From contig JAQGDQ010000199.1 in the NCBI GenBank assembly GCA_030141605.1, positions 1 through 64,000 of the forward strand: DNA of 64,000 nt, read 5' to 3'. The notes beneath the pieces were generated by a model, which saw only the letters and a program-made list of their open reading frames with translations, was not told the DNA's origin and made no database searches. A program made the translations under genes and the position numbers. The DNA comes from Tubiluchus corallicola (taxonomy: Eukaryota; Priapulida; Priapulimorpha; Priapulimorphida; Tubiluchidae). Shown piece by piece: positions 9,626 through 64,000 of the stretch (its first letter is position 1; each line of letters opens with the position of its first letter).

Positions 9626-11283
9626 CAAAAACCTGTATTTGTATTTGTTTTTTGTATTCCTTATTCCTTCCATAACATATTCCTCGCAAAATATTATAAC
9701 TATACGTATACAAAATTTCTCTCCATTAATACAAACTATTTTATAATTATAATTACACTCCTGCAAAAATGAGAATATAATCACCTCTCAAAAAACTAAA
9801 ACTATAATATGTAAACCTACTCCCATGACCCTCTTTCTCCAAACTGTTTTTTTAGTGCTATCCTGTTCTTACTGACCTACCTAACTTTTCCTTTTTCACA
9901 TTTATTACATAATTCTTTTCTCTCTAGTACAACTACATATACTAACAATTGCCAGGTGCCACTAGCTGGTCGGCCGCTGCTTAGCGATATACTTCAGTAC
10001 AACCTAAAGACATGTGCTCGCACTCAGCATAACTGCTTTAGTTATCGCATTTCAAGGACCAATTTTTACATTGGTTTTCATAAACAAAAAAGTTCAGTCT
10101 GCTTTGCTTTTTGAATAGTTTTTCGTGTGCTCTTGAGTTCTAGTATATGTGGCTTTTGTGAAGAAATTTTCCACAGCAATTTTATCTATGTTATTTACTG
10201 TACGATACACTACGTTTCAGGTCATCATTCATTTATTAACGATTATCTCTAGCACTGATTTGATCTGCTTATTGTCACGTTTGTTGATTCATATCTCTTG
10301 ACATAGGTCTGTTAACTATAGTCTCTACTGATTATCTTTCCTTTGACCTGAACCTGTTAATAATATCTTTACTATTATATCTATTGATTAGGGTGTATGG
10401 ATTATTAGCATTATTGCTGATACTTATATTATTATGATATTATTGTACTCTTTGATTAGGGATTTTGATTATCCTCTTTGATAATTGATATATAGTTATT
10501 TTCAAGCTATTCCCTATCTTCCTAGTGACGATCAGTGATCTTTCTCTACTTCGTGGATGTATTTTACAATGGCGTCGGTTTTACTATCCTCGACATTATT
10601 ATTGTGTTGCCCAACTTTCGGTGCTGCAATCCAATGATGTCTATGACTGTAAAGCCAAAATGCTGCTGATCTAATTTCTTGCCGTAGGCAGCATGTCATT
10701 GTACCATTTAACTGATTTTGTCTGAGATGATTGACCTTAACACTTAACCACATTTCAGTTCCAGTACAACCACTACATTAAGTAGGTCCTGTCATTAAAT
10801 ACGAGACCTTTGGGTTACCGCCAAACTGCAGTATAAAATTGAAATCCATGGTCTCATCATTTACAATGCTCTGAGCTCCACGCAAATAGACTAACGTAAC
10901 ACGTTTTTGCCAGATCCATTTCCGCTGTTTTTAGTTGCTGCTAATGTCAGAAGATGGACTGTTTGTCAAGCTGTCTAACTGTTTGCAGATAAAAGGAGAA
11001 CGCTGAAAAACAAACATAAACAAACACTGTTACGGAAGTTTACACAAAGCAAGCCAAATAAATTATCACCGTAAATGCTGCTGCAATTATGCTAAAAGCA
11101 TCATTCTGTGCCTGCATTTAGCAAAATGGTTAAACAGTACGAAAACCTCAACATGGGTTTGTAAAATCACAGCAATACTTCTGGCTTTGTCAGTACTTAA
11201 TTTGTTAGCAGTTGAAAGGATTTTATACATAAAACCTGGTAGCAAACTAGAAACACTTGTTGGTTCGCCGTTGCAACCAAATC
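9626..11283. other. Gene-free stretch before GPCR 1
   Basis: A+T-rich sequence with many TGATTA/GATTATC motifs (about 9110-9310 and 10240-10490), which look like a loose cryptic repeat. No exon, RNA gene or element end could be supported. The 5' region of the GPCR must lie in the right part. Confidence 0.4.
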
Positions 11284-12255
11284 ATGTTCTCAAACAACAG
11301 TGGTGCCAGTGCTGCAAACTCAAACTGTACAACAGCTAATTTCACAACAAGTTTTGGGACGGAGTGGATGCAGACCGTAATAATAACTGTGGTGCTACAG
11401 TTACTTGCAGTCACAATAGCCCTTTTTAATGCCATAGTTGTCTGTACGATCATCAAGTATCAGAAACTACACACCACAAGCTACTGGTTCATATGCAACC
11501 TCTCGGTCACGGATCTGTTCATGGGTATCATGCTAAGCATCTTACACTTTGTGTTCTCCGACCAGTTTCTCTCACAATACAGCATTGCCAAACGTTGTCT
11601 CTCAGGCTATGTCATAGTCCAAGTTCTCAGCATTGAATCGCTCTTAATGCTTCTGGTTGTGACTGTGGATCGCTACATAGCTATTGTTCACCCACTTAGG
11701 TACCCCGTCATTGTCAAATTGGGGAGAGTAAAGACGGTAATTGGTGGTACGTGGGTTTGCGCTGTAGTAACAGGCTTGCTCCTGCTGTACATCAATCGCT
11801 CCATGTTGCACGTTCAGACGTGCATGTACTTCACGGCCGTGAATGCCATCACCACCTATACAGCGAATGGATTGTTCCTGTTGATCATTCTGGTAATGTT
11901 GATCGTTTATTTTAAAATAATGTCCATCGTTCGCCGCCACATGGCTCAGATTAACAAGGCTAAGCAGCAGGACGCCACCTTCACACAAAGTGTAAGGCAG
12001 GCAAAGATGATGTTCATCGTAATCGGTGCTTTCGTTGTGTGCTGGTTACCACTGAATGTCACCCCAATGATGACTTCTGAGAAAGTTCACAAGAATGTAC
12101 TTCTTGCATTGCAATCATTCGTGTTCTTCATGCTTTACTTAAATTCGCTGATGAACCCTCTGATTTACGCCTGGAAGAATGAGGACCTCAGACGAGCAAT
12201 TCGACACATGATAACCTGCAAAGCAGGAAGTCCAGTTGATACAGACATTCCATGA
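11284..12255 (+). CDS. Class A (rhodopsin family) GPCR, orphan, copy 1
   Basis: Intronless seven-transmembrane receptor of 323 residues, expected in the plasma membrane and coupled to G proteins. The N terminus has sequons (NNS, NCT, NFT). Visible class A marks: LSVTD with the TM2 aspartate at 77, disulfide cysteines 105 and 180, DRY at 129-131 followed by IAIVHPLRYP, CWLP at 253-256 in TM6 and NPLIY at 291-295 in TM7. The nearest general type is the adenosine/amine-like group of invertebrate intronless receptors; the ligand cannot be read from sequence. I chose the ATG at 11284 rather than 11257 because the paralogue at 36088-37059 also begins MFSNN and then has exactly the same length. Confidence 0.93.
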   Translation: MFSNNSGASAANSNCTTANFTTSFGTEWMQTVIITVVLQLLAVTIALFNAIVVCTIIKYQKLHTTSYWFICNLSVTDLFMGIMLSILHFVFSDQFLSQYSIAKRCLSGYVIVQVLSIESLLMLLVVTVDRYIAIVHPLRYPVIVKLGRVKTVIGGTWVCAVVTGLLLLYINRSMLHVQTCMYFTAVNAITTYTANGLFLLIILVMLIVYFKIMSIVRRHMAQINKAKQQDATFTQSVRQAKMMFIVIGAFVVCWLPLNVTPMMTSEKVHKNVLLALQSFVFFMLYLNSLMNPLIYAWKNEDLRRAIRHMITCKAGSPVDTDIP

Positions 12256-14365
12256 AAGAACTACAGTAAATCGTATAGAGTCTTGTACTCAACTTGTATG
12301 CAAATTTGTTTTGCTCGCTTACTCTACCACGGATAAAATCAGAGTATGTATGTGAAAACATGAAGACAGGTTATAATGTATAGCAGGACAGTTCTTACAG
12401 ACATGCCGTAAAGGCAGTTCAGTAATTCGTATTATGAGTCTTTATCTGCAAACAAAGCTAATGCATATTTTTTGCCTACATTTGTAGAAGAAATCAGTTT
12501 GTCCAGTGGCTTCTCGTGTATAGGCACTATGAAGCTGCAACACCCCCTATTTTCACTCGATATTATCAATAACGTTCAATATAATGAGTCTTTTTTCTTT
12601 AATTCTTATTTATACTTGCACATTTGTAAGCCCTTGTACAGAACCAGAGCACGTGGCGGAACTGTGCACTTCATAGTTCCAGCGATGCGGTGTCTGGCTG
12701 TTGTGCGCATGCGCACATGTCCGAGTTAAGAAGCTGCACGCTAGCTAGAGACGGCACTGTCGCTCACGCAGTACCAACCCTGTTGTGCCAGGAGCGTTTC
12801 TTTTTTATTTTGATTCAGCATCATGTGTTGTGCTCAAAAACCATGTACCATATTCTTGAATGTGATAAACTCTAGAATTAGATGATTATCACGATTTCTG
12901 CTATTTTATTTGGTTCATTTTTTGCAGTTCTTTTTATTTTACAGCAAGTTTCAATACTTTAATCCTTGCCTTCCTTGCACTCCCAAGAAATAAGCTGTGT
13001 CATTGTGAGCATCAAGACTGTTTTACACAATATTAAAACATACGTAATTTTGTTTCTGAAGCAGCACTACCACTAATCCTAGCTACGAGCCGCTACTGCA
13101 TATAACAGCGCTTGTAAAAAGGCAATGCCTTATAACTTCATATAAGTGACGTTGGCATGAATATATAGATCTTGATTTACGCGTATTTTTCTTTTTGAGT
13201 TTCACTAAAGCGCTTTAGACATGGTTTGCTAAAGCACTACTGCAGAAGCAAAATTATTTTTAATTAAATGTATAAAATGAATAAAAACTGATAACCTGAC
13301 TTTTTACTTCTAGGACAAGTAGGGCTACTCTACGTTACTGTACACAAACCGAAAATCTACCTGTACTAAAGGCAATAGGATGAATTTTCATACCCATTTT
13401 GAAGTACGGCAAAAAGTACATCCTATCATAATGCCAAAATGTTTCTTATAATTAAATGATAGATTAAAAACTAAATTAACGGCAAGCGAACGCAATTAGT
13501 GAACCCAATTCTTTAACGCACACTATTGGTTATACAGCTTAGAAGATTATCTTAGATAATAAGTAGGATTCCCGTTCCTCACAACTAGCTACAATCTGGA
13601 TCCTGTCATTGTGTGCAAAATTCCGGCTTACAAGATGCCACATTGTAAAAATAAGAGATATCAAACTTAGTCAAAAATTAATAACTAAATACATTTCTAA
13701 CTGATACGTATTGTAATGCGGACAACGGAAACTCGGATAATGTAGATCAAAATGTGCGTTATACAAAATTGTACAAGTAACCAAGCTCACCAGCAGGTCA
13801 AGAGCACTTAGCATAGCAGTCCATAACAGTTGCATATCTCTGCTACGAAGTGCATGGGCAAACGTTCCACAATTGTGTTTGCGAAAGCGAAAATTGAAGT
13901 TCAGTGTTACCTGTACAACATTCCGTGTGATGCACAAGAACTTGGCAAATTTAAAGTTTAAAATTCAAATTTCAGGTTCTGCTGTGCTCACATGAGCTTT
14001 CGGATGTGTGTAGTACATCACAACCGAACATCTGGGAACTGCAAGGTACGGGACCCGCTTTTTGTGCAATGCGTTTTCGAAATGTACGTGTAACTAGCGA
14101 ATGGCGAAGTGCATGTAACAGCGAAGAACTGGCTTCGCAAACACGAAATTACGTTTGTGTGGTAATAGTTCTTTCACGTAAGTCATTCTTGAAAAAAATA
14201 GCATGTTCCCATTGAATATTTTACGGGGTAAATTGTTTTGAGCTACAGTTTAGGACTGGGCTCGGTTTTCCTTTAACAACAAATGAATAAATGACTATAA
14301 AATAGTTGAAGACCTTATCATTATCCATCAGTTGACTTTACGATGACAGTCGCAAAAACTTCAGG
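12256..14365. other. Gene-free stretch after GPCR 1
   Basis: No supported gene. It contains a 16-bp perfect palindrome TGTGCGCATGCGCACA at 12702-12717, which matches the consensus of the NRF1 transcription factor (TGCGCATGCGCA), and GCGAA/TTCGC-rich segments at 13850-14140 that partly pair with each other. Open frames here have no family resemblance. Confidence 0.4.
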
Positions 14366-16332
14366 TATCTACGTCACGGTATTCTAGTTGGCATGGCAAA
14401 GCTTACACAGTAGAGATAAGAAGTATCTACATCACGGTATTCTAGTTGGCATGGCAAAGCTTACACAGTAGAGATAAGAAGTACCTACATCACGGTATTC
14501 TAGTTGGCATGGCAAAGCTCACACAGTAGAGATAGGAAGTATCTACGTCACGGTATTCTAGTTGGCATGACAAAGCTCACACAGTAGAGATAGGAAGTAT
14601 CTACGTCACGGTATTCTAGTTGGCATGGCAAAGCTCACACAGTAGAGATAAGAAGTATCTACGTCACGGTATTCTAGTTGGCATGGCAAAGCTCACACAG
14701 TAGAGATAAGAAGTATCTACGTCACGGTATTCTAGTTGGCATGGCAAAGCTCACACAGTAGAGATAGAAGTATCTACGTCACGGTATTCTAGTTGGCATG
14801 GCAAAGCTCACAGTAGAGATAAGAAGTATCTACGTCACGGTATTCTAGTTGGCATGCAAAGCTCACACAGTAGAGATAGGAAGTATCTACGTCACGGTAT
14901 TCTAGTTGGCATGGCAAAGCTCACACAGTAGAGATAAGAAGTATCTACGTCACGGTATTCTAGTTGGCATGGCAAAGCTCACACAGTAGAGATAAGAAGT
15001 ATCTACGTCACGGTATTCTAGTTGGCATGGCAAAGCTCACACAGTAGAGATAAGAAGTATCTACGTCACGGTATTCTAGTTGGCATGACAAAGCTCACAC
15101 AGTAGAGATAGGAAGTATCTACGTCACGGTATTCTAGTTGGCATGGCAAAGCTCACACAGTAGAGATAAGAAGTATCTACGTCACGGTATTCTAGTTGGC
15201 ATGGCAAAGCTCACACAGTAGAGATAAGAAGTATCTACATCACGGTATTCTAGTTGGCATGACAAAGCTCACACAGTAGAGATAAGAAGTATCTACGTCA
15301 CGGTATTCTAGTTGGCATGGCAAAGCTCACACAGTAGAGATAAGAAGTATCTACGTCACGGTATTCTAGTTGGCATGGCAAAGCTCACACAGTAGAGATA
15401 GGAAGTATCTACGTCACGGTATTCTAGTTGGCATGGCAAAGCTTACACAGTAGAGATAAGAAGTATCTACGTCACGGTATTCTAGTTGGCATGGCAAAGC
15501 TCACACAGTAGAGATAGGAAGTATCTACGTCACGGTATTCTAGTTGGCATGGCAAAGCTCACACAGTAGAGATAGGAAGTATCTACGTCACAGTATTCTA
15601 GTTGGCATGGCAAAGCTCACACAGTAGAGATAAGAAGTATCTACGTCACGGTATTCTAGTTGGCATGGCAAAGCTCACACAGTAGAGATAAGAAGTATCT
15701 ATGTCACGGTATTCTAGTTGGCATGGCAAAGCCCACACAATAGAGATAAGAAGTATCTACGTCACGGTATTCTAGTTGGCATGGCAAAGCTCACACAGTA
15801 GAGATAAGAAGTATCTACGTCACGGTATTCTAGCTGGCATGGCAAAGCTCACACAGTAGAGATCAGAAGTATCTACATCACGGTATTCTAGTTGGCATGG
15901 CAAAGCTTACACAGTAGAGTTAAGAAGTATCTACATCACGGTATTCTAGTTGGCATGGCAAAGCTTACACAGTAGAGATAAGAAGTATCTACATCACGGT
16001 ATTCTAGTTGGCATGGCAAAGTTCACACAGTAGAGATAAGAAGTATCTACGTCACGGTATTCTAGTTGGCATGGCAAAGCTCACACAGTAGAGATAAGAA
16101 GTGTCTACGTCACGGTATTCTAGTTGGCATGGCAAAGCTCACACAGTAGAGATAAGAAGTATCTACGTCACGGTATTCTAGTTGGCATGGCAAAGCTCAC
16201 ACAGTAGAGATAAGAAATATCTACGTCACGGTATTCTAGTTGGCATGGCAAAGCTTACACAGTAGAGATAAGAAGTATCTATGTCACGGTATTCTAGTTG
16301 GCATGGCAAAGCTTACACAGAAGAGATAAGAA
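14366..16332 (+). repeat. 58-bp satellite array, about 34 copies
   Basis: Head-to-tail copies of a 58-bp unit that includes TATCTACGTCACGGTATTCT, AGTTGGCATGGCAAAGCTCA and CACAGTAGAGATAAGAAG. Copies differ by single bases (CTCAC/CTTAC, AAGAAG/AGGAAG, ACGTC/ACATC) and a few lose 1-2 bases (near 14764, 14811 and 14857). Nearly identical copies imply recent expansion or homogenisation. Each unit carries TACGTCAC, close to a cAMP-response element half site. Variant units cluster at both ends. The array has no spacer-repeat alternation and is not a CRISPR array. Confidence 0.97.
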
Positions 16333-18868: not shown

Positions 18869-19318
18869 GAGATATTTAGACAAATTTGTTCTACCTATCT
18901 TCAAACAGCTTCTTTATGTAAATCAAATTATACAATCTAATAATCTGATTGCTTGAGTCTAGGAAAAAAAGGTTAAACAGATTGATTAATCAAGTAGCAC
19001 TGTGATCCTCTATAAATGTAATTATAAAATTAGAACTAACAGCTTGGCATTTGTGGACAACTTATTGATGCAGTGTGTGAATGCCTGAGTGACCTCTATC
19101 CACAGATAGTGGTTTTTACAGTTAAAAGTGCTGGTCATGATGTGACCGGTGTAAATGGGAAAAACTATAATAATAGAAGAATGAGGGCCTGTATGAATTC
19201 AAGCTTAATCAGCACAATTTCACTTGGCCTTTCCTGCCTTGGAAATCGTCCAAAAGTGCTCAGCCTCATTGATAGCTCAGCCTCGGTTAATTTTTTAAAA
19301 TCTCTTTTTACATTGTAG

Positions 19319-20201
19319 CTTCTTATTCAAAGTAATACCTGCCAAAAGGAAATCCTCGGGAAAACTACTACACTTTTTCAGAAAGCTGCCTCAAACGATG
19401 TCTGCACTACCATCGTACCCTTGGCACTTGGTGAATATCTGGTGGAAATATCGCAGACCTACGACAGATTTCAAAAAGATTGAAGTCGATGTGACCATTG
19501 ATCGAGACATACCAAGCACATACAATTTGTACATTGCTCCAATCAGCAACGCTTATCTAAACGGAATCGGATTTTATGGGGGACTTCAAACCAACATTGA
19601 CGGATGGGAAAGCAGTGAAGACCGCGTTCGAGTTTACCCCGGAAAGGGAGCAATATTCTCCCGTTGGTCCGTCGACGGATGTCCCATATGCCTTGATCAT
19701 GTGAAAGTTGCAGCAGGAGGACTGTGCGAAAGTGCCGGTTACGAGGGTGAATTCTGCAGCGTACGAAGACCATTCAGTTGGTCGAAAGGAGTCTACACTT
19801 TTTGTGTTGAAAAAAGCAAAACGGAAATGGTAGATGATAAACCACAAACTTGGTTCGACTGCCTAGTGAAATGTTGCTCATCGAATATGATCACCCACGT
19901 GGGCAGCTTGCGTTTCGAAGGGAAAGAGTTCGTGCTTGGTGACTCCCATTGCTCTTTTCTAGAGATCTACTCCACGGAAAATGTCAAAAAACCCGACATA
20001 CCAACAGTTCGGGTCACTTTTGGCTATCCTCGTATTAACGGCCAGTGCGTGCCACTTGAAAAAGCTTGGGTGAACTATAATGACAAGGCAAAATCGGCTT
20101 CGCCCTACGAGGCTACCGTGCTGCGCCACCTATCATCTGCTGTTGTAAAGATCGGCAAATCATTCCGTACTAACAATAGTTCACATGCACTGGATTTATA
20201 A
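19319..20201 (+). CDS. DUF3472-like protein, partial 5' end uncertain
   Basis: A single open frame encodes a cysteine-rich, probably secreted protein of unknown function. From the first ATG (19398) it has 267 residues. The frame is open back to an acceptor-like TTACATTGTAG at 19308-19318, so the exon may begin at 19319 and an upstream exon with a signal peptide may exist; none was identified. Conserved blocks are WHLVNIWWKY (9-18), GFYGGLQTN (58-66), GKGAIFSRW (82-90), GYEGEFCSVRRPFSW (114-128) and HVGSLRF (167-173). Their order and spacing resemble the DUF3472 family and a set of secreted bacterial proteins with GxQT...FSRW...GHEGxFxxVRR...W motifs. The C-terminal 60 residues (after VRVTFGYPRINGQC) look like a family-specific extension. 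Poly(A) signal AATAAA at 20469-20474. Confidence 0.7.
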
Positions 20202-24133: not shown

Positions 24134-24569
24134 CTGAACACAAAAAAATTATCGGTCATAAATACTGTTACGGCACTTATGTGAGTTTTCATAGGAATTG
24201 CTGATTTCAAATGAATCAGTTATCACCTATTAAGATATCACAACACTGTTAAAAATACGTTAATCAATCCTCGAGAAAATAATCGGGGGCATGACTTGTA
24301 AGGCATCGGAATTTTCCCCGAAGACAATACCATTTTTAAGTTGTATGAAGCTTTTAATTTTTCTAGAGCATAAATTGCATTTTTGAGTTAGGCAATGTAA
24401 ATTACATGTATCTAAGGGACCATAATTTTTTATTTAAATTACACGAAATTTTGAAATGTATATTAAGCGATGTTTTTTTGTGAAAAAAATGCAGGATTTC
24501 ATTTTAAATTATTATTTTATATATTATTTCATTATATATATTTTATAAAGAATTTTTTAATAATATATT

Positions 24570-24890
24570 TTAATATATTATTTCTAGTTACATAAGCCTT
24601 TCAGCAGATAAGCGAAATGCTAAGTAAAACAAATTCGCTTGGAAAACCTTATGTGATAATTTAACATTGCCCTTTCTTCCCCTGATTTACATTTTCATAG
24701 GTGACCCTGAAGTCATGTAATGGCGACTTTGCAACAGTGTCATGGGAAATTAAAATGAAAACAAACAAAAAATCCTTTTAACGCGAGTACGATATATGCA
24801 CAAAAATGCTGTAAAACAAGATAATCTTTAAGGCGTTTTTTCTGAAACCTACTTCAGGCATGCCTTTTCTTGCCCTTTAAACGCCAACAT
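24570..24890 (-). repeat. Dispersed repeat R, copy 2 (inverted)
   Basis: Read on the minus strand it matches 1797-2120: CCTGAAGTAGGTTTCAGAAA, ATATCGTACTCGCGTT, CCATTACATGAC, GGGCAATGTTAAATTA and TTATGTAACTAGAAATAATA. It ends in TATA-rich sequence to the left (24480-24590) and lacks the right-end block seen in the other copies. Confidence 0.7.
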
Positions 24891-25015
24891 GCACAGAGAA
24901 TTGCTAGATATCAGCAAATTGTGAGACAAACAATAGGTGCCATGCTCTAATACAATCTCTAATGCAAGTTATACTAAACTACAAAATACGGTAGCTAATA
25001 ACGTCATTTAATCTC

Positions 25016-27349
25016 TCAACTGTGAATGCCGTAAAGGTCTGCACCTAACTTTTTTATATCTACCTGTTCCAGCTTTTTCCAAACGGATACAAAACCACCG
25101 AACCACAGCATTGACGGACGGTTCTTTTCCCAGAGATTACTAGCCATTACCATCTTCATCGCACCCAGGTAGCCCAGCGACAAAACTCCGTTTCTCGTGG
25201 GCACCGAGTCATTTCCAATGCGGCCATCGATTGCTTTGGCACACAGATTAATCAAGTACAGAAGTGGTATGGACTCAATGTCTTTCCTTGAGTGCTCTTT
25301 GAGTACATTTACGTCCCTCAGCAAATTATGTGGCATGCAGCCTTTCTCGGAGCATAAGCTTATGTATTTGAGCATGTTTCGGACTCGCAGAACAACGTTC
25401 TCTTCTGTCCAGCAGCGGTCATCTGAGGCTGTAACCGTCTCACGCAGAAAAGCGGTTTTTACTAAATACGAGTCGATTATTTTATGCGGAGAAACTCGTA
25501 GAGTAACAAAAAGATTTAAAACATCAACATCGGCAGCCATTGCTTTCTGGCGATTCAAATCTTTTGCAACATGCTCTCCAAATACGCCCTCTGGCGGAAA
25601 AGTTTCTGGAGCATACAAATGACTCTTTAGTAAAGCTTTTGCCATTATCATTGCACGTTTTCTTGACTTGGGCTTTTGGCGTATGATGTGACACTCCATC
25701 ACGGCTAGGGAAACTGTCCAAACTACTTCTGGAACATCCAAGTATGACTTGCAGACAACATGATGAGGTATATGAAACGCCATCTCTTGAGGACGAAGAA
25801 AACCTTGCGGTGGTTGTGATACCTCCAATGCAGGGGAAATATCCACCGATATCAGTAAAGACTTGTAATAGTCTCCTTTATAAACCAAATGAAAAGTAGT
25901 ACAGACTTTGTTCCATTCGAGGTCTACTAAAGAAAAACAAGACGTTGTTGAAGTCTTCTCTTCGAACACTGCATTCACTGCTTTGCAGATCAAGGTTACG
26001 AATGCTGCCTTGATTTTAGTTGAAAGAAAACTGGTTTCTACGACAAAGTCTGAAAATCGGTGCCGCGTTGCACCGTCTTGAATCAGAACCGTAGCGAACC
26101 CTGGACTTGCTTCAACGACTTTTACGTGTCCGTCCAAAGCCCGTAAAACTAAGAAAAAGTCAAACTCATCCGGTAATCCACACTTAACTCCGCAGGCGCT
26201 GCTGCCCACCAACTCCGCTGTCGACTCAAATCTGCTGTCGAGTTCTTTCAGTTTGTCGCAAATGCAGTCTACTAACTGCAGCACTTTTTTCTTGATGAAC
26301 TTACTTTCAGTTGTGTTTCGAAGCAGACCGATTGCCGGAATCTCTAGAATGTCTTTCACTGACCCACAATTGGCAATGGATTTTCTCATTTCCTTATCGA
26401 ACAAGTTCTCACAAGCAACATTTTCATCTGCTGTGACATACCGGGACTTCAGCAGATAACCAATCATAGCTCTGATCTTCTTGTTCAGAGCCATATTTGT
26501 TGCCAAAAGTATGTACCATTCCATAGCCGTCTGACCTGCATTGTTCTTCTTGTCAACGTCGATTCCATATTCAACCAACACGTTAACCACACCACTTTTA
26601 AGGCCCAAACCACCATCGTTAACAGAATAATGAAAGGCTGTTTCTCCTTTATCATCGCAAGCATTGACATTTGCACCATTTTCCAATAGCAGCCTGACGG
26701 TGCCTTTACTACCACTACTGGCTGCATAATGCAGAGGTGTACACTTTTTATTATTAGTGCAATCAACAAAAGCACCTCCGTCTATTAATAATTCTACTAC
26801 ATCATAATATCCATGACTGGCAGCACAGTGCAAAGGAGTATTTCCAGCATTGTCAGCAGCATCCATGTGTGCGCTTCGTTCTACCAAAAGCTTTGCAACG
26901 TCTACATGACCACCAGTAGCAGCAGCGTGTAGCAATGTCTTCCCAACAAGCGGTCCATCTTTCGCGTAATAATTAACGTCCATATTTTGTTCCAGCAACA
27001 ACCGAACCATGTTGATGTGCCCGCGGTGAGCAGCAAGAAACAATGCCGTTGCGCCCTGCTTATTAACGACATCAGTATCGGCACCTGCGGCCAGCAACAT
27101 TTCAAAAACATCCGTCTGCCCCAGTCCAACAGCAAGCATTAGAGGGGTGTTGCCTTCGCTGTTTTTAATGTTAATTTTTTCAGAATCACTAATAAGTCGT
27201 TTTAGTTTATTAATGTTGTTAAGGCGGATCGCCCAGTGCATTGACGTCCAACCAAAAATGTTTGATGTTCCTGCCCCCATGGTCCAATCACTAAGCCGCA
27301 GCTGTGTTAGTGAACTTGGTGAAAAGTTCACATCTTGATGATTCTGCAC
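25016..27349 (-). CDS. Ankyrin-repeat cGAS/Mab-21-type nucleotidyltransferase (cGAS-like receptor candidate)
   Basis: Intronless, 777 residues. Residues about 34-271 form seven ankyrin repeats (for example NTPLHCAASHGYYDVVELL at 170-188). A helical linker follows, and from about 345 a Mab-21/cGAS fold. The nucleotidyltransferase signature is complete: GSS at 382-384, then DEFDFF at 394-399 supplying the acidic pair E395/D397, and the third acid D503 in LLISVDISPALEV. In cGAS and animal cGAS-like receptors these three acids bind the metals that join two nucleotides into a cyclic dinucleotide, which activates STING; Mab-21 developmental proteins often lack them. The C-terminal helical half (ENVVLRVRNMLKYIS, SIPLLYLINLCAKAI) fits the Mab-21 C-lobe. 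No zinc-thumb HxCC motif as in vertebrate cGAS is visible. The ankyrin part could sense or localise. Ligand and product are inference. The first ATG of the frame is used. Confidence 0.9.
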   Translation of the reverse strand: MQNHQDVNFSPSSLTQLRLSDWTMGAGTSNIFGWTSMHWAIRLNNINKLKRLISDSEKINIKNSEGNTPLMLAVGLGQTDVFEMLLAAGADTDVVNKQGATALFLAAHRGHINMVRLLLEQNMDVNYYAKDGPLVGKTLLHAAATGGHVDVAKLLVERSAHMDAADNAGNTPLHCAASHGYYDVVELLIDGGAFVDCTNNKKCTPLHYAASSGSKGTVRLLLENGANVNACDDKGETAFHYSVNDGGLGLKSGVVNVLVEYGIDVDKKNNAGQTAMEWYILLATNMALNKKIRAMIGYLLKSRYVTADENVACENLFDKEMRKSIANCGSVKDILEIPAIGLLRNTTESKFIKKKVLQLVDCICDKLKELDSRFESTAELVGSSACGVKCGLPDEFDFFLVLRALDGHVKVVEASPGFATVLIQDGATRHRFSDFVVETSFLSTKIKAAFVTLICKAVNAVFEEKTSTTSCFSLVDLEWNKVCTTFHLVYKGDYYKSLLISVDISPALEVSQPPQGFLRPQEMAFHIPHHVVCKSYLDVPEVVWTVSLAVMECHIIRQKPKSRKRAMIMAKALLKSHLYAPETFPPEGVFGEHVAKDLNRQKAMAADVDVLNLFVTLRVSPHKIIDSYLVKTAFLRETVTASDDRCWTEENVVLRVRNMLKYISLCSEKGCMPHNLLRDVNVLKEHSRKDIESIPLLYLINLCAKAIDGRIGNDSVPTRNGVLSLGYLGAMKMVMASNLWEKNRPSMLWFGGFVSVWKKLEQVDIKKLGADLYGIHS

Positions 27350-28410
27350 ATTCTGACGCTCACATTTTCATAATTCTTTATCCTACTAAAATAAAAAGTG
27401 TTGTTACTGCACAAAACAAAATAATTAAACTAATGACTTTTACTAATTACAGGAAACGGGCTACCCCCCCCCTACATTGCTCTTGGGTTTCTGAAACTAA
27501 AAGATATTTATAAATTATAAATGGCAAAATTCATATATAACTACCACTTGGGAATATAACCTTATTTGTATAGCAACTACTTTACGAAAATATCTGATGT
27601 TCTTAAATACAGCACTAAGGCCTCAGTAAATAGTTACTTATATTCCGTACTAATCAAGGTTCATGCACAATACAACATTGTGGAACTATTTTATGGAATG
27701 CCCTAAGCCCAGGTATAAAACTTTCCACATCCATTTCATTCATTTTGATTCCTTTGAAATCGTTAATCTACCCTCCACAAAAATTTGGCAAGACTGTATT
27801 ACTTTTCTCATTTTGCTTACTATTATCATTCTATTACCTAACCTCACTTTCGTTGTATGTATATATAAGTATGAGTGTAGGTTATGTACGCATATATAGA
27901 CATGTTTACATTTTTATGAATTAACATAATTATGACCTTGACTAATTGCTACTAGGCCACTGTTAATGTTAATAACATCTAATGAGAGGTGACTGACTGG
28001 GTGACCGTATGGTCTTTCGTCACGTCTGCTCATATTTATCTGTATCATATGCACTAACATCTTAACTACCGTATTAAGTTCATGAAGTTAAATAAATATT
28101 TATTACTATTACTATTGGTTTTGCGAACTCGCGCAAATTCATTCATATTCAATACCTTTCATCAACTGTCTTTGTCTAATTGCAGCGAGTTAGACAGCAA
28201 GAGTCAGAATAATGTAACTCGTCTGGGACTAGGCTACTTCACTCAAGACTTCCACTAAAATGGTCAAACAGCATTGTTGTTATTTAATTACAAATCTTAC
28301 TGGTAATTATGAGGCTTGACAATATTTCTCATCTCGGAGACTACAGGCAAAAGGAAAACAGTCAAGACTCCAAGCACACATTCACGAAAATTGCACATCA
28401 ACCAACGTGC
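27350..28410. other. Intergenic region between cGAS-like gene and cathepsin C
   Basis: The two genes are divergent, so this holds both promoters. It also contains the retroelement tail listed at 27955-28112 and a C-run near 27465. No further gene is supported. Confidence 0.4.
27955..28112 (+). mobile_element. 3' end of a retroelement, related to 16640-16803
   Basis: Shares GACTG-rich body TGACCGTATGGTCTTTCGTC with the copy at 16.7 kb and ends AAATAAATATTTATTACTATTACTATT, a simple-sequence tail. No coding sequence remains. Confidence 0.45.
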
Positions 28411-34500: not shown

Positions 34501-37500
34501 TCTATTTGTACCCAAACCCTGCAAATAGGGGGTAACTGTGTTTAATGAATCAATTTTTTATTTTGAAAAGTGTCTGTAGTGTTGTAGAAAACTGTATAGT
34601 AGACAACGTAGGATAATTGAATTTGTACAGAGCTTGAAGTATATTAGACTGAAGTTAGGGTAGACTGTTGTAGACTGGTTCACTCTGGTGGCTGAAACAA
34701 AGAACTTGAAATTGTGTTGAACTATGAAAGACTTTATTTCTATAAAGAATATGAAATTATGTTGAACTGTGAAAGACCTTATTTCTGTCTACACATAGCA
34801 CTATTATTTACAAGAAAGAAGACACATAGTGAACATTCAACAGCTGTGCTCAACCAGGCTGGGGCCTTGACAGAGCTGCCCAAGTCACATGTACCCACCG
34901 AACTTACCTGATTGGCTAATAAAACATACAAGCAGTCAACACTACCATATATGGGAAGCCCAGTGGCCGAGCAGCACTGACCAAGGCCACAATCTGGATT
35001 AAACTTGACTCAATTCAGTAATAAATAATTTTAAATGTAGGTGGCAGCACATATTAAATTATTATAGTAGTACTTTAAATTAATTGCAAATGAAGTGCGC
35101 GACAATTGTATATAAATATTATTTATTATCTGAGTAAAGATTTATAATAATGATAATAAAACCCTTGCTAACAAGATGGCATACTGTTTTTGGCAAGATG
35201 CACAAACATTTTACATGAACGAAAAATGACAAAAAAAACGTTAAAGTCTATTTTAATATTTCTAAATATTTTCAACTAATAAGTTATTGAACCCTAACCC
35301 TAACCATAATCCTATCCCAGCCCTAAACCTAGCCTCAACCCTAACAATAATCCTATCCCAGCCCTAAACCTAACCTCAACCCTAACCATAATCCTATCCC
35401 AACTCTAACCCTAACCTCAACCCTAACCTTAATCCTAATCCGCGGTTCGACTTATTCAAGAACAGGTCTTGAAATGTACAAAATATTAAACTAAAACAAC
35501 AGAAGGGCTGCTGCCATATAAAAAGTGTATCTCCCACAATAAGCCTTTTCACAGTTCCAGCGATCGGTGATGATCGTGAAAAGGTCAAAGGTTAAGTTTA
35601 CCAGACAACATATTTGTGTGTGTACGCTTGATAATACCTTGCAACCCATACTATTGTACTAGTAACAGTTTTAACAGCTAGCTAGAACCTTACCTAGTTC
35701 ATTTTTTCTTTTTCCCAAGCAAGAGCCTGCTAGTAAATCACTCTATGCACAGACTAATGCATAATTAACCAAAGTCCACGTAAAGCAACTGAAGTTACTG
35801 AACTGATTTGGAAGAAGATTTTGTTTTACACACAAGTCACGTGACGGCTGTAGTTAAGACTCATTGCTGTGGTACACTTAACCTTCGACCTGCAGCAACT
35901 GCGCGTGCGCACAATGAAACATGTAAAGACTTATTGCTCCTAACATAGGTTTTTTCATACTTTTTGTTACACTTATTATTTTGATAGGTTTGCAGGGTAG
36001 TGGCTGATGCAGGATGCCTCGTAAAGTGATTACAAATAAAAAGCAAATTTTACATCTAAAATAATTAGATATTGCAATTTAAATGAGCTAAACGACATCA
36101 CTGAAAACCGGAGTTGCCGATCGGCAACTTAGTATATACTGGACTGCCTTCCTTAAATCCTTATTTTTCCATGCATAGATGAAAGGATTAAACAATGAAT
36201 TCAGCATAAACAAAATATAAACTACTGGTCTTGCGTGAGCATCCAGATAAAAAACATCCGTGCTTCGAGCGTACACAATACCGACAATATTGAGAGGTAA
36301 ATAACATACAATAAAAGCTCCAATTATAATAAACATCAACTTTGTCTGCTTTACATTTTGCGCAAATGTAAAATCCTGCTGAGTTGCTTGATTAATTCTA
36401 ATTATATGTTGCCGTATTATCACCATTATTTTCACATAAACAGCAGACATTATTGTCACAATCACTACAAAGTGAATAGTTGATATATATATTAGTGTCT
36501 TATTGTTGTTCATTACTCTCAAATAATCACACGTATAGCTATCGTTTATTCGTTCCACGTCGTTGTCGTATGCTACCAACAGTGCCATAAGAAATGAGTA
36601 ACACCATGACACGGCTATAGCATTTTTCGCCCTCTGTAATTTAACAATTCTGTAATAATGCAATGGATGTATAATTGCTATGTACCTGTCAACTGTCACC
36701 ATCATCAACATAACAAGTGCTTCCACTTGCGCCATTTCCATGACAATCATTAAACATAGACACACCCATTTTGCTTTCGTTTCATTGCTGTCGAAAGCAT
36801 AAACTTTCTCCATATTTACCACAAATCCCACAATTCCTATAATTATATCAGTCGCAGACAAGTTGCAGATGAACAAGTTACTCGTGTTACACAGCTGAGG
36901 ATATCTGAAAAAAGCTCCGACCACAATTGAATTCAAGAAAACTATAATGCTAGGAATTAGGAAAAAAAATGGCCCGTATATGTGATTGTACATATACACT
37001 GTAGAAGCGTTGATACTGTCATCGGTCCGTATTTCATCTGTGGTGTTATTAGAAAACATTTTTACTCTCGGTTTTTATTCCCAAATGCCTTTGATGAGCC
37101 TGCCATCGTGTAAGTTACTCTAGTTTTATTATGCAAACCAAATGCCCACGTACAACCAACAACAAGATGCTGTTTTATTGCCTTGTTAGTTTAGTTTTTA
37201 TTGAAACCTTTCACGTGTATCTCTCCCATGTCATAGTTAACAATGACGTGTTGTTTGCATTCGCGCAGTTTAAACATATGCTGTGATCCGTCACATCTCA
37301 TAATTGATACCTTACTGTTCTTTTGTTTGCGCTATTGTTTACTTTTCATTGAATCCCTTTGCACTTTTATCTCTCATATCATAGTGTACAATGACATGCT
37401 ATTTGTTTTTATGCAAATCAAACAAATTAGCCACTGAATGCTTCTGTGTACTAAATACTGTTATATAGTATTTAGTATATAGTATATACTCATTGGCTGT

Positions 37501-50104: not shown

Positions 50105-53100
50105 CTAGCAGTAACTGCTGCCGCGATGATTGCCTCTGTGTTCTGCAGCAGCCATGGTGTCAAAGACGTGAGCAAGCTTAGCAGCCAGTTTATGTTTCTT
50201 AGCAAACTCATCTTCTTGTAGAGTGAACAAAATCTAAAAACAAAACACAAAACTAAATTATAAAATTTCAACTTGCACAAATAGGTAGCAAGAGGAGCAA
50301 CCTCTCCTCCAAGCACATTTTTTAAAATTGGCACCTTTTAACAATTTTTTTAACTCTTTAGTTCACTTGTGCAATAAAAGTCAAATCTCCTTTTTTATTT
50401 TTTTAATCACATGGCCTTGGAAGAATCTTCTGGAATCATTACTTTATCTGACCAACCTGCCTCCCGTGTTTTTGAAATGAACACAACTCATTTGTCAAGG
50501 CTGGCTGATTGAGACCGGGTAGCACAGTTCAATGGTAGCGTACTCGCTTACCACCCAGGAGGTCACGGGTTCAAGTCTCGAACGAGTCATACCAAAGACT
50601 TGAAAAATGGTACCGCTGGTTCTTCAATCAAGCATGCGGGTTTAACAAAGCAACATGCAGGACATAATAATCGTGACCACCTTGGAAATAAGTATTGAGT
50701 TACTTAAGGTGTTATCCTTCGACTATGTCCTAAACGAAATTATTATAATTATTATTATTGAGCCAGGGATCAACCTGATCCAAATCTAATTACACTCACA
50801 TCTCTCTGTTTGCCGGATCTCACTTTTATGTATATCAGAAACATCCAACAAAATCTGGACCAATAAATGTCCTGCATACTACGGACACAATCCATGGTTT
50901 CGCAAGCTGACTGTTAGTTGGTTTTGTTTACAACATTACATCACTGTAACCAAGCAGCGTGTAACAACACATGTGTGGCTTTTATATCAGGTGCTAGATG
51001 TTTTTGAGACGATTAGACGATTAATTCTACATTACCATGAGTCTAATACACGGCGCCTAGTGTATTAGCCAAGTATTGGGAAATCTGGACAATCGGCAAA
51101 TTCGGACCGACGTCTCCCCGCTTTTATCCGACAAACCGAGAAATGAGTGTAGTTTCAATAAAATACAAATTATAGACAAATACGTGGGTGAATTAATAAA
51201 AAATCCTGCTTTTACATTACTAACAAGTTTTACTGAAAGTCTCCCCGCTTTTGTCCGGCAAACTGAGATATGAGTGTATTATACTACATTCTTGTCAGAT
51301 TATCTAGCAGTAGGCCTACTGTCAATTACACACAGTACGACTGTCAAAAATTGTTTGTTATGTGTCCAGACTCTTTTGCTGCTCCACCTAACTTTAAAAC
51401 CTGCTTATGCTGCTGAAAAACTTTGGTAAGATTCTGTTCTTAGTTTAAACAGCAGTTTTTGTTTCGTTTTGAAAAATGTTTTTCAAAATAATTAAGAATA
51501 TGTACATAAGTACTGTTGTATTTGACACAAGTTCCCATCAAATCGAAACTCGCCAGTTTTCGACTCACTTTTTGACCAAACACAGGTCAACGTACATCGC
51601 TCACTTTCCCTCATTCAGACCTTTCATTTGATATACTACAAGATATTAAAATTGGAAATTGTCATTTTTCACCCTTGGAGTACGCAATCAACTTCAGTTT
51701 TTCACTCACCTGTTCATTGTACTTTGCAGCGTATCCATACAGCATGAACAAAGCTACGTCACTGTTGAAGTCGTTCTTGTGCTCCTGGGACTCACGGCTC
51801 AACATGGCTGTCATGTCCTGATCACTCACCCCCGGCTGTTGCTTTAACTCATTGTAATACCTGAGCAGAAGAACAAAACCAATTAGAACCATGATCATGG
51901 TGCTCGACTTATAATCGTAAGATCCTTGGTTCGAATCCGGTTTTCAGATTTCTGAGTTCACATCTCTTAATTTTTAGTGAAAAAATTAATAACTGAGGGC
52001 TTTAAATTAGCATTATAAACAATTAAAGGGAAGAAAAAGAAATTTCAAAGTATGTCCCAAAAAAAGTTTTATACAAAGTTATATTACTCGGCATTGTACT
52101 TACCTGTTTCAAAAACATAGTATTATGCGATTCAAAAAAGAAATTCCTAATAATTTAAAGTGTATGCGGCAACTGGTACAACATCACAGTTTCACATATC
52201 CCTATATGCAGCACAAAATGTGACTGGTTCACCAAAAAATATTATTAATCTTACTAATAAAATAAAGTAACTTTCGCTTTTGCTTAGTTAGTGAAGTGTG
52301 TTACGAAAGTTGTAATTATTTTTCAAACTATATGCAATGGTATTTAAATTTAAACTTGTTTCAGTTTTTGGCTCAGTGATCAAATGATCAATGGCTGCAC
52401 CAAACTGTCAGTGCAGAAGTTTAAATTTACGAGTTTTATACGGCATTACTGCTAATAGAAGTTCTGTGTGCAATAAGACAGCATGTGCTAATAGAAGTTC
52501 TGCGTGCAATAAGACAGCATGTGCTAATAGAAGTTCTGCGTGCAATAAGACAGCATGTGCTAATAGAAGTTTTGTGTGCAATAAGACAACATGTGCTAAT
52601 AGAAGTTCTGTGTGCAATAAGACAGCATGTGCTAATAGAAGTTCTGTGTGCAATAAGACAACATGTGCTAGCAATAAGACAGCATGTGCTAATAGAAGTT
52701 CTGCGTGCAATAAGACAGCATGTGCTAATAGAAGTTCTGTGTGCAATAAGACAACATGTGCTAATAAGACAGCATGTGCTAATAGAAGTTCTGTGTGCAA
52801 TAAACACATGTGCTAGCAATAAGACAGCATGTGCTAATAGAAGTTCTGTGTGCAATAAGACAACATGTGCTAATAGAAGTTCTGTGTGCAATAAGACAGC
52901 ATGTGCTAATAGAAGTTCTGTGTGCAATAAGACAACATGTGCTAGCAATAAGACAGCATGTGCTAATAGAAGTTCTGTGTGCAATAAGACAACATGTGCT
53001 AGCAATAAGACAGCATGTGCTAATAGAAGTTCTGTGTGCAATAAGACAGCATGTGCTAATAGAAGTTCTGTGTGCAATAAGACAACATGTGCCAATAGAA

Positions 53101-56100
53101 GTTCTGTGTGCAATAAGACAGCATGTGCTAATAGAAGTTCTGTGTGCAATAAGACAACATGTGCTAGCAATAAGACAGCATGTGCTAATAGAAGTTCTGC
53201 GTGCAATAAGACAGCATGTGCTAATAGAAGTTCTGTGCGCAATAAGACAGCATGTGCTAATAGAAGTTCTGTGTGCAATAAGACAGCATGTGCTAATAGA
53301 AGTTCTGTGTGCAATAACACAGCATGCAATAAGACAGCATGTGCTAATAGAAGTTCTGCGTGCAATAGACACAAATCTGGAATAAGAAGCATGTGCTAAT
53401 AGAAGTTCTGTGCGCAATAACACAGCATGTGCTAATAGAAGTTCTGTATGTAATAAGACAGCATGCGCTAATAGAAGTTCTGCGTGCAATAAGACAACAT
53501 GTGCTAATAGAAGTTCTGCGTGCAATAAGACAACATGTGCTAATAGAAGTTCTGCGTGCAATAAGACAGCACGTGCTAATAGAAGTTCTGTGCGCAATAA
53601 CACAGCATGTGCTAATAGAAGTTCTGTATGTAATAAGACAGCATGCGCTAATAGAAGTTCTGCGTGCAATAAGACAACATGTGCTAATAGAAGTTCTGCG
53701 TGCAATAAGACAACATGTGCTAATAGAAGTTCTGCGTGCAATAAGACAGCACGTGCTAATAGAAGTTCTGTGCGCAATAACACAGCATGTGCTAATAGAA
53801 GTTCTGTATGTAATAAGACAGCATGCGCTAATAGAAGTTCTGCGTGCAATAAGACAACATGTGCTAATAGAAGTTCTGCGTGCAATAAGACAACATGTGC
53901 TAGCAATAAGACAGCACGTGCTAATAGAAGTTCTGTGCGCAATAAGACAGCATGTGCTTATAGAAGTTCTGTGTGTAATAAGATAGCATGTGCTAATAGA
54001 AGTTCTGCGTGCAATAAGACAACATGTGCTAGCAATAAGACAGCATGTGCTAATAGAAGTTCTGCGTGCAATAAGACAGCATGTGCTAATAGAAGTTGTG
54101 CGTGCAATAAGATTGCATGTGCTAATAGAAGTTCTGTGTGCAATAACACAGTATGTGCTAATAGAAGTTCTGTGTGCAATAACACAGCATGTGCTAACAG
54201 AAGTTCTGTGTGCAATAAGACAGCATGTGCTAATAGCAGTTCTGTGTGCAATAACACAGCATGTGCTAATAGGAGTTCTGTGTGCAATAAGACAGCATGT
54301 GCTAATAGAAGTTCTGCATGCAATAAGACAGCATGTGCTAATATAAGTTCAGTGTGCAACAAGACAGCATGTGCTAATAGAAGTTCTGTGTGTAATAAGA
54401 CAGCATGTGCTAATATAAGTTCTGTGTGCAATAAGACAGCATGTGCTAATAGAAGCTCTGCGTGCAATAAGACAGCATGTGCTAATAGAAGCTCTGCGTG
54501 CAATAAGACAGCATGTGCTAAAGCATGTGCTAATAGAAGCTCTGCGTGCAATAAGACAGCATGTGCTAATAGAAGCTCTGCGTACAATAAGACAACATGT
54601 GCTAATAGAAGTTGTGCGTGCAATAAGATTGCATGTGCTAATAGAAGTTCTGTGTGCAATAAGACAGCATGTGCTAATATAAGTTCAGTGTGCAATAAGA
54701 CAGTATGTGCTAATAGAAGTTCTGTGTGTAATAAGACCGTATGTGCTAATAGAAGTTCTGCGTGCAATAAGACAGCATGTGCTGATAGAAGTTCTGTGTG
54801 TAATAAGACAGCATGTGCTAATAGAAGTTCTGTGTGTAATAAGACAGCATGTGCTAATAGAAGTTCTGCATGCAATAAGACAGCATGTGCTAATAGAAGT
54901 TCTCTTTTCTCGTCCTGTAAAAAGGTTAGACATCGTAACTCACCTAGTGACTAGTTGCTTGTATTTGGGAATGTCTTTAGCATACAACAATTTGCTAGTG
55001 GACGAATCTTTGCCCAACTTATGTTCAGTAATTGAACAGCTGTCCATAAAGGTTTGTGCTATCACAGACAGACAGGCGTCGACCGTCTGAGACTTGCCAA
55101 CGTCGAACACAAAGTCCGGGTTCTTGATGAGGTTGACCCAGAAGCGAAGCGGAAGACTGTTATTCTTCCACGTGTAAACAACGTCGGGATCGACAATCTC
55201 GTGCTGAAGCGCTTGATCGTCCAGGAAGTCAAACATGTACTTTATAGGAAGGACAGCAGCATTCTCGCCTTCGCCTGGATCAAATATGGCGTCGATGAGA
55301 TCGTCGACAAACTGCTGAAGCGCACCCTGGTGGAAGAAAATGTTATTGTCAAGAACATAAACAACAAAACTCTATTTGGAGCTACACACTTATCTAGCAT
55401 TAGGTGGTATGCAACATTAGTAATAGCTTTAAAAAATTGGAACAAATTTTTTACCCAGTTCCCGATTTTTATCGAAATCTCTTCAAAACTCCAGTTGCGC
55501 TTTTTAAGAGTCGAATAGTGCAATATTTAGACAAAATGACCTCTGTTGCAACAATATTTAAACAATTTACTGACCACTCTAAGACATCATCTTGAGACAT
55601 TTAGACAAAATGGACAATGTGACAGCAATGCTTAAACAATTAAATGACCACTCTTAAGACATTATCTTACGGTCTTTAGACAAAATGACCACTGTTGCAA
55701 CAATATTTAAACAATTTGCTGACCACTCTAAGACATTATCTTATGATCTTTAGACAAAATGACCAGTGGGACAGCTATATTTAAACAATTTATTGACCTC
55801 TCTAAGACATTAACATCATCTTGCAATATTCAGACAAAATGACCAGTATAGCAGCAATATTTAAACAATTTATTGACCACTCTAAGTTATTAACATCATT
55901 TTTTACATATCTGTGATTCAACAAATGCAAAGCTTACCAGTAGGGCTGGCGGCAGGACTGGAGCTCAGCGCACCTTGAAGAACAAGCCTCTATGAAGAGC
56001 TACCAGAAGTATGCTATATTTGGGCACCCGCTGTTAGGACTATAAACTTACAAAATAACAAAACTGATAATAGTCAAGAAAGCATTAAAAAGCTACTAGC

Positions 56101-61904: not shown

Positions 61905-62250
61905 CTGCAACGAACAATGCACAAAATGAATATGCTCCATCTAGTGTCAAAAAACAGAAGCACTCACATATGCACCAGCTTCAAATGCGAACAAGACAAC
62001 TGAAATGTGCTATAAATCATGCATGCCGTACTTAGAATTTTTTGATAGTGATATACAGATATTCATCCACTTACAACCTATGCAACTTACGACTGTGCAC
62101 TGCCATACGTATACAACACCTTACACATAGCTACACTTTTGTCTACACACATGACTTCTTATATGTGTAGAGAATCTCCATTTGATTAAAAGGGTCCGAC
62201 TTGGGTGTAAGTCGCCTCACAACCAATTGTATTCGTAAATCGACGACGAC

Positions 62251-64000
62251 TTGTAATTAATGCAATTTAACTGGGTCCCACAGCTCAATGGTAGCGTGCT
62301 CGCTTACATTTGTAATTAATACAATTTAACCGGGTCCCACAGCTCAATGGTAGCGTGCTCGCTTACACTTGCAATTAATACAATTTAACCGGGTCCCACT
62401 CCTCAATGGTAGCGTGCTCGCTAACACTTGTAATTAATACTATTTAACCGGGTCCCACACCTCAATGGTAGCGTGCTCGCTTACACTTTTAATTAATACA
62501 ATTTAACCGGGTCCCACAGCTCAATGGTAGCGTGCTCGCTTACACTTGTAATTAATGCAATTTAACTGGGTCCCACAGCTCAATGGTAGCGTGCTCGCTT
62601 ACACTTGTAATTAATACAATTTAACCGGGTCCCACAGCTCAATGGTAGCGTGCTCGCTTACACTTGTAATTAATACAATTTAACCGGGTCGCACAGCGCA
62701 ATGGTAGCGTGCTCACTTACACTTGTAATTAATACAATTTAACCGCGTCCCACACCTCAATGGTAGCGTGCTCACTTACACTTGTAATTAATACAATTTA
62801 ACCGGGTCCCACACCTCAATGGTAGCGTGCTCGCTTACACTTGTAATTAATGCAATTTAACCGGGTCCCACACCTCAATGGTAGCGTGCTCGCTTACACT
62901 TGTAATTAATGCAATTTAACCGGGTCCCACACCTCAATGGTAGCGTGCTCGCTTACACTTGTAATTAATGCAATTTAACCGGGTCCCACACCTCAATGGT
63001 AGCGTGCTCGCTTACACTTGTAATTAATGCAATTTAACCGGGTCCCACACCTCAATGGTAGCATGCTCGCTTACACTTGTAATTAATGCAATTTAACCGG
63101 GTCCCACACCTCAATGATAGCGTGCTCGCTTACACTTGTAATTAATGCAATTTAACCGGGTCCCACACCTCAATGGTAGCGTGCTCGCTTACACTTGTAA
63201 TTAATGCAATTTAACCGGGTCCCACACCTCAATGGTAGCGTGCTCGCTTACACTTGTAATCAATGCAATTTAACCGGGTCCCACACCTCAATGGTAGCGT
63301 GCTCGCTTACACTTGTAATTAATGCAATTTAACCGGGTCCCACACCTCAATGGTAGCGTGCTCGCTTACACTTGTAATTAATCCAATTTAACCGGGTCCC
63401 ACAGCTCAATGGTAGCGTGCTCGCTTACACTTGTAATTAATACTATTTAACCGGGTCCCACAGCTCAATGGTAGCGTGCTCGCTTACACTTGTAATTAAT
63501 ACTATTTAACCGGGTCCCACAGCTCAATGGTAGCGTGCTCGCTTACACTTGTAATTAATACAATTTAACCGGGTCCCACACCTCAATGGTAGCGTGCTCG
63601 CTTACACTTGTAATTAATGCAATTTAACCGGGTCCCACACCTCAATGGTAGCGTGCTCGCTTACACTTGTAATTAATGCAATTTAACCGGGTCCCACACC
63701 TCAATGGTAGCGTGCTCGCTTACACTTGTAATTAATGCAATTTAACCGGGTCCCACACCTCAATGGTAGCGTGCTCGCTTACACTTGTAATTAATGCAAT
63801 TTAACCGGGTCCCACACCTCAATGGTAGCATGCTCGCTTACACTTGTAATTAATGCAATTTAACCGGGTCCCACAGCTCAATGGTAGCGTGCTCGCTTAC
63901 ACTTGTAATTAATACAATTTAACCGGGTCCCACAGCTCAATGGTAGCGTGCTCGCTTACACTTGTAATTAATACAATTTAACCGGGTCCCACAGCTCAAT
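62251..64000 (+). repeat. 59-bp satellite with tRNA A-box, about 30 copies, runs off the window
   Basis: Unit TTACACTTGTAATTAATGCA, ATTTAACCGGGTCCCACACC, TCAATGGTAGCGTGCTCGC. Two variant types are arranged in blocks: CACAGCTC with ATACAATTT (both ends) and CACACCTC with ATGCAATTT (middle). The portion ACCGGGTCCCACAGCTCAAT through GGTAGCGTGCTCGCTTAC corresponds to the first 35 bases of SINE S1 (50512), including the pol III A-box; no B-box is present. The array is inside the plexin gene, upstream of the first visible exon. Confidence 0.96.

Follow-up and report, generated by a model that had tools for sequence, protein, structure and literature searches.

The closest described systems come from a study of animal cGAS-like receptors (cGLRs) that appeared on bioRxiv in 2023 and is said to be by Li et al. 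The animal cGLR family has more than 3,000 members, 87% of which are without added signaling domains, and some members bear TPR or ankyrin modules (PMC9980059, bioRxiv 2023). In the excerpts of that paper, cGLRs are defined by a Mab-21/cGAS nucleotidyltransferase domain, a G[S/G] motif and [E/D]h[E/D] ... [E/D] catalytic residues, and further by an X50-90 spacing, predicted structural homology to cGAS and the ligand-triggered production of a nucleotide second messenger. Published animal cGLRs with ankyrin repeats (ANK-cGLRs) resemble the protein described here in joining ankyrins to a cGLR domain with a predicted complete active site, a likeness that is drawn from their description only (PMC9980059). 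In the same excerpts, no cGLR that carries ankyrins is described as active. Excerpts of seven other papers describe no ANK-cGLRs (PMC10732462, PMC12424679, PMC11091121, PMC9334734, PMC8195603, PMC4752248, PMC12928593), although others may exist in the literature.

A second set of related proteins combines similar parts differently. TRADD-N/death-domain proteins with ankyrins are, like cGLRs of this architecture, marine-animal immune proteins that join signaling modules to repeats, and an oyster TRADD-N protein contains a Mab-21-like cGAS domain followed by TPRs (PMC8195603, as excerpted). In contrast, the protein described here has ankyrins, and Pfam finds no death-like domain in it.

We analyzed a stretch of 64,000 nucleotides from Tubiluchus corallicola (the window). 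By its sequence, the product of one gene in this window is a cGLR, a probable innate-immune enzyme, in which an ankyrin array precedes a domain that has both the GS loop and the E-D-D metal triad. The features of this ANK-cGLR gene are as follows.

25016..27280, minus strand: ANK-cGLR coding sequence, a single exon encoding 754 aa plus the stop codon
26456..27253, minus strand: ankyrin-repeat domain, residues 10-275 (Pfam PF00023, 4.2e-51, seven stretches)
26198..26206, minus strand: GSS with the activation-loop GS motif, residues 359-361, G359-S360 aligning on cGAS G212-S213
25811..26191, minus strand: Mab-21/cGAS nucleotidyltransferase domain, residues 364-490 (PF03281, 32.2 bits, cut-off 24.1)
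26159..26167, minus strand: E372-F-D374, the predicted metal-binding pair, aligning on cGAS E225/D227
25841..25843, minus strand: D480, the predicted third catalytic acid, within SVDISPALE, aligning on cGAS D319
25271..25483, minus strand: Mab-21_C helical lobe, residues 600-670, including S604, Y605 and K608 (PF20266, 28.6 bits, cut-off 24.1)
25019..25270, minus strand: C-terminal extension, residues 671-754, without a Pfam match

The reading frame that contains this gene extends from stop to stop over 25016-27367 on the minus strand, a total of 783 codons; the longest stop-free run in 30 random sequences, generated from the window with a first-order Markov model, was 174 codons. A first-pass annotation, made from the DNA letters, had placed the start of the protein at 27349. 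Although the resulting 777-aa frame is open, its start codon would be GTG; an ATG is first encountered at 27280, and we judged its Kozak context by eye to be good (GACCATGG). Starting at this ATG yields the 754-aa protein; residue numbers counted from the GTG are therefore 23 too high. The G+C content of the coding sequence is 0.52, 0.37 and 0.42 at the first, second and third codon positions, respectively. As the annotation had proposed, the coding frame is without an intron, a statement that covers the coding frame and leaves an intron in the 5′ UTR or an upstream exon possible.

The proposed architecture, seven ankyrin repeats and a Mab-21/cGAS fold in one chain, was borne out by Pfam, which found seven Ank stretches and both Mab-21 domains within a single uninterrupted frame. 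In this search, PF03281 and PF20266 both exceeded their curated cut-off of 24.1 bits, and domain matches were repeated on sub-fragments. By eye we count eight ankyrin units, which start at residues 10, 43, 76, 113, 146, 179, 212, and 249, the eighth being degenerate; seven of the eight starts were picked by a pattern as well. The zinc ribbon of vertebrate cGAS has the pattern H-x5-CC-x6-C. This pattern is absent from residues 300-754, and the columns that contain the zinc ligands of human cGAS in a MAFFT alignment hold G, gap, gap, and D in the window protein, which on this point departs from a vertebrate cGAS.

The residues on which catalysis would depend are retained. Both the GSS and the three acids that the first-pass annotation had listed as E395, D397, and D503 are present, the acids as E372, D374, and D480, and MAFFT places them on the cGAS residues given above. 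In a three-way MAFFT alignment of the window protein, human cGAS, and 8gjy (cGAS-like receptor 1), S604, Y605, and K608 fall on human cGAS S435, Y436, and K439, and the G, S, E, D, D, S, Y, and K columns are identical across all three sequences. BLASTP and hhalign likewise pair the window protein's G-S, E, D, and D with their equivalents in 8gjy and cGAS. In a choanoflagellate cGLR, the triad mutation D64N abolishes activity (PMC12424679, as excerpted). Set against the published definition, the window protein has a Mab-21/cGAS domain, a G[S/G] motif (G359-S360), and an [E/D]h[E/D] motif (E372-F-D374) followed by D480, and its ankyrin repeats and cGLR domain are in the same chain, as expected of an ANK-cGLR. 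The spacing between D374 and D480 is 105 residues, where 8gjy has 104 and human cGAS 91, so all three proteins exceed the X50-90 rule as excerpted (PMC9980059), human cGAS by one residue. Since 8gjy and human cGAS also lie outside it, the printed range does not separate members from non-members.

Several methods detect the match to cGAS-like proteins. A sequence search of the entire PDB with residues 300-754 returned two distinct sequences at E <= 10. The best was 8gjy, with an E value of 3.8e-8 for the whole sequence and 0.0024 for the best single stretch; the second was 5eog, MAB21L1 (E = 0.0022), which shares the Mab-21 fold but is a weaker match. Residues 328-560 returned the same 8gjy stretch, which stops before D480, together with one irrelevant weak match. 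With BLASTP, the window protein aligned to residues 38-346 of 8gjy, whose solved chain has 376 aa, over 339 columns at 22% identity (1e-13). The Smith-Waterman score was 127, whereas 500 shuffles averaged 34 and reached at most 57. Using hhalign against a two-sequence profile of cGAS and 8gjy, we obtained a probability of 97.4% (1.3e-11, 270 columns; run without a shuffled control). Human cGAS aligns end to end, and the MAFFT identity of the cGLR domain is 21% to cGAS and 26% to 8gjy. Single-sequence AlphaFold2 models had mean pLDDT values of 41.1 for the full protein and 33.1 for residues 320-672, too low to use. That the three acids align with those of cGAS gives indirect support to their convergence in one pocket. 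We also looked for relatives of the 455-aa cGLR part in viral contigs, where none of 34 pattern stretches was confirmed, and in genome contigs, where none of 46 was confirmed; the two collections comprise viruses and prokaryotes, so neither result says much on animals.

Apart from the lack of a zinc ribbon and the added ankyrins, the window protein departs from human cGAS at several positions. The two tyrosines that follow GS in cGAS and 8gjy are replaced by S361 and A362. Human cGAS R376, S378, S380, K411, and K414 are also unmatched in the window protein, in a stretch where the alignment is weak. In contrast, 8gjy, which shares with the window protein G-S, E-D-D, S-Y-K, and the triad spacing, keeps the tyrosines, both serines (S378/S380), and K414; it has C at R376 and R at K411. 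One explanation of the unmatched tyrosines and guanine-reading residues is that the protein has lost cyclic dinucleotide synthesis, and that its Mab-21 fold and ankyrins form a protein-binding scaffold for, e.g., a TBK1/IKK-like kinase. There is precedent in shrimp, where Mab21 proteins bind and activate IKKε (IKKepsilon) without cGAMP synthesis (PMC12928593, as excerpted). However, G359, S360, E372, D374, D480, S604, Y605, and K608 are all kept, at an identity to cGAS and 8gjy of only 21% and 26%. Some catalytic residues should have disappeared from an inactive protein, so the full retained set speaks for an enzyme. At the activation-loop position, MAB21L1 has DN rather than GS in the printed alignment. 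We therefore regard the loss of synthesis in favor of a purely scaffolding role as unlikely.

If the protein is an active enzyme, the same departures bear on what it makes. Mouse cGAS R364 is, we assume, the counterpart of human R376. Mutation of this mouse residue alters base preference and linkage (PMC11091121, as excerpted). The window protein lacks matches to the guanine-reading residues of cGAS, so its product, should the enzyme work, is probably not strictly 2′3′-cGAMP.

The best explanation of the gene, and one to which we give a fairly good chance, is that it encodes an animal cGLR, a predicted ligand-switched cyclic dinucleotide synthase acting on STING. In a resting cell, the ANK-cGLR would be idle. 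Its ligand may be a nucleic acid, which would bind to the cGLR part, or a protein partner, which the ankyrin repeats would hold, and binding would order the GS loop. The enzyme would then join two NTPs to form a cyclic dinucleotide, and this cyclic dinucleotide would activate STING. The ankyrin array would most likely scaffold or tune the response, through location, oligomers, or partner proteins. Cyclic dinucleotide synthesis and STING signaling by the ANK-cGLR are plausible, and its ankyrins could plausibly serve as a scaffold or sense proteins. In Aplysia, Mab-21-domain proteins are present and STING was not found, according to excerpts of PMC9334734; a Mab-21 gene is thus no guarantee of a STING pathway. 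Within the window, a Pfam scan (E <= 0.01) detected neither STING nor a further Mab-21 domain among 20 of the 63 other listed ORFs, the remaining 43 and any exons under 90 codons being outside its scope.

With regard to the ligand, we calculated isoelectric points for each part of the protein. The pI was 8.66 for the cGLR part (residues 320-754) and 9.24 for its C-terminal half (500-754), and 5.96 for the nucleotidyltransferase half (320-500), 6.35 for the ankyrin part, and 7.97 for the whole protein. Nucleic-acid-sensing cGLRs have pI values >8.5, obtained with a calculator that differs from ours, and acidic, self-active cGLRs have been taken as a hint of non-nucleic-acid ligands (PMC9980059, as excerpted). 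The charge evidence is mixed and speaks neither for nor against a nucleic acid as ligand, although the pI of 5.96 means that nucleic acid binding on the face of the nucleotidyltransferase half is not favored. Possibly, the ankyrin array is itself the sensor, recognizing a protein, either of microbial origin or a modified one from the host, and thereby switching on the fused synthase, with a product other than cGAMP. A parallel comes from the TRADD-N immune proteins, whose ankyrins may, their authors suggest, recognize invader molecules directly (PMC8195603, as excerpted). We consider it improbable that the array acts in this way.

The genes surrounding the ANK-cGLR bear on its origin. Five genes in the window could be named, a Rab-like gene, two GPCR genes, the ANK-cGLR, and a plexin gene, and three of the five have uninterrupted domain-coding frames. 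The GPCR genes are of the rhodopsin family and lie at 11251-12255 (plus strand) and 36088-37074 (minus strand), each matching 7tm_1 positions 2-260 of 260 in one frame. The plexin gene is on the minus strand, where open frames at 54940-55371 and 51662-51943 match profile positions 262-389 and 390-441. These positions are adjacent in the profile, and an intron of about 3 kb separates the two frames. Plexin, Rab-like, and rhodopsin-type GPCR sequences mark an animal genome, and a bacterial origin of the window was set aside on this ground.

The first-pass annotation had suggested, from the absence of introns in a region where other genes have them, that the ANK-cGLR is a retrogene. Of its premise, the part concerning plexin stands, and the contrast between the uninterrupted ANK-cGLR frame and the ~3 kb plexin intron is what one would expect if the gene had recently been retroposed from an ANK-cGLR gene with introns; such an origin would be compatible with either function, catalytic or scaffolding. 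The premise does not extend to the two GPCR genes, whose frames are likewise uninterrupted. Moreover, no bracketing direct repeat of at least 12 nt is listed within 24300-27800, where shorter or decayed duplications would escape, and in the 716 nt downstream of the gene, runs of A reach at most 7 nt, with no poly-A tract. A tblastn search with the protein revealed no second copy and no other Mab-21 or ankyrin stretch in the window; the two other matches were of 14 and 22 residues, with E values of about 3-5. Retroposition is thus not supported, although the traces of an old event could have decayed, and we view a recent one as quite unlikely.

The window also contains several repeats and an additional open frame. 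A blastn search with the ANK-cGLR gene region detected only a dispersed non-coding repeat of 315-352 nt, with one copy just downstream of the gene (24567-24881) and one at 1792-2143; the copies are in opposite orientation and ~69% identical. A minisatellite of ~67 copies of 36-nt units occupies 52450-54903 within the plexin intron, and the long open frames on both of its strands look like products of the repeat. Two satellite-like arrays are very regular: one at 14365-16332 (58-nt unit, 34 copies, 96% matches) and one at 62249-64000 that reaches the window end (59-nt unit, ~30 copies, 97% matches). At 35290-35438 is an interstitial telomere-like AACCCT array, which fits TTAGGG telomeres; these are common in animals. 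An open frame of 300 aa at 19299-20201 (plus strand), without a Pfam match at 0.01, may, to judge from its size, be a protein-coding exon from an unknown family.

As the combination of ankyrins and a cGLR domain has already been published (PMC9980059, as excerpted), the ANK-cGLR adds one well-defined candidate and is not a new system. An ANK-cGLR that retains its catalytic residues is a clean case in which to ask if fusion to a protein-binding domain alters what the enzyme responds to. If the ankyrins were indeed the sensor, a cGAS-like enzyme would answer to a protein instead of a nucleic acid.
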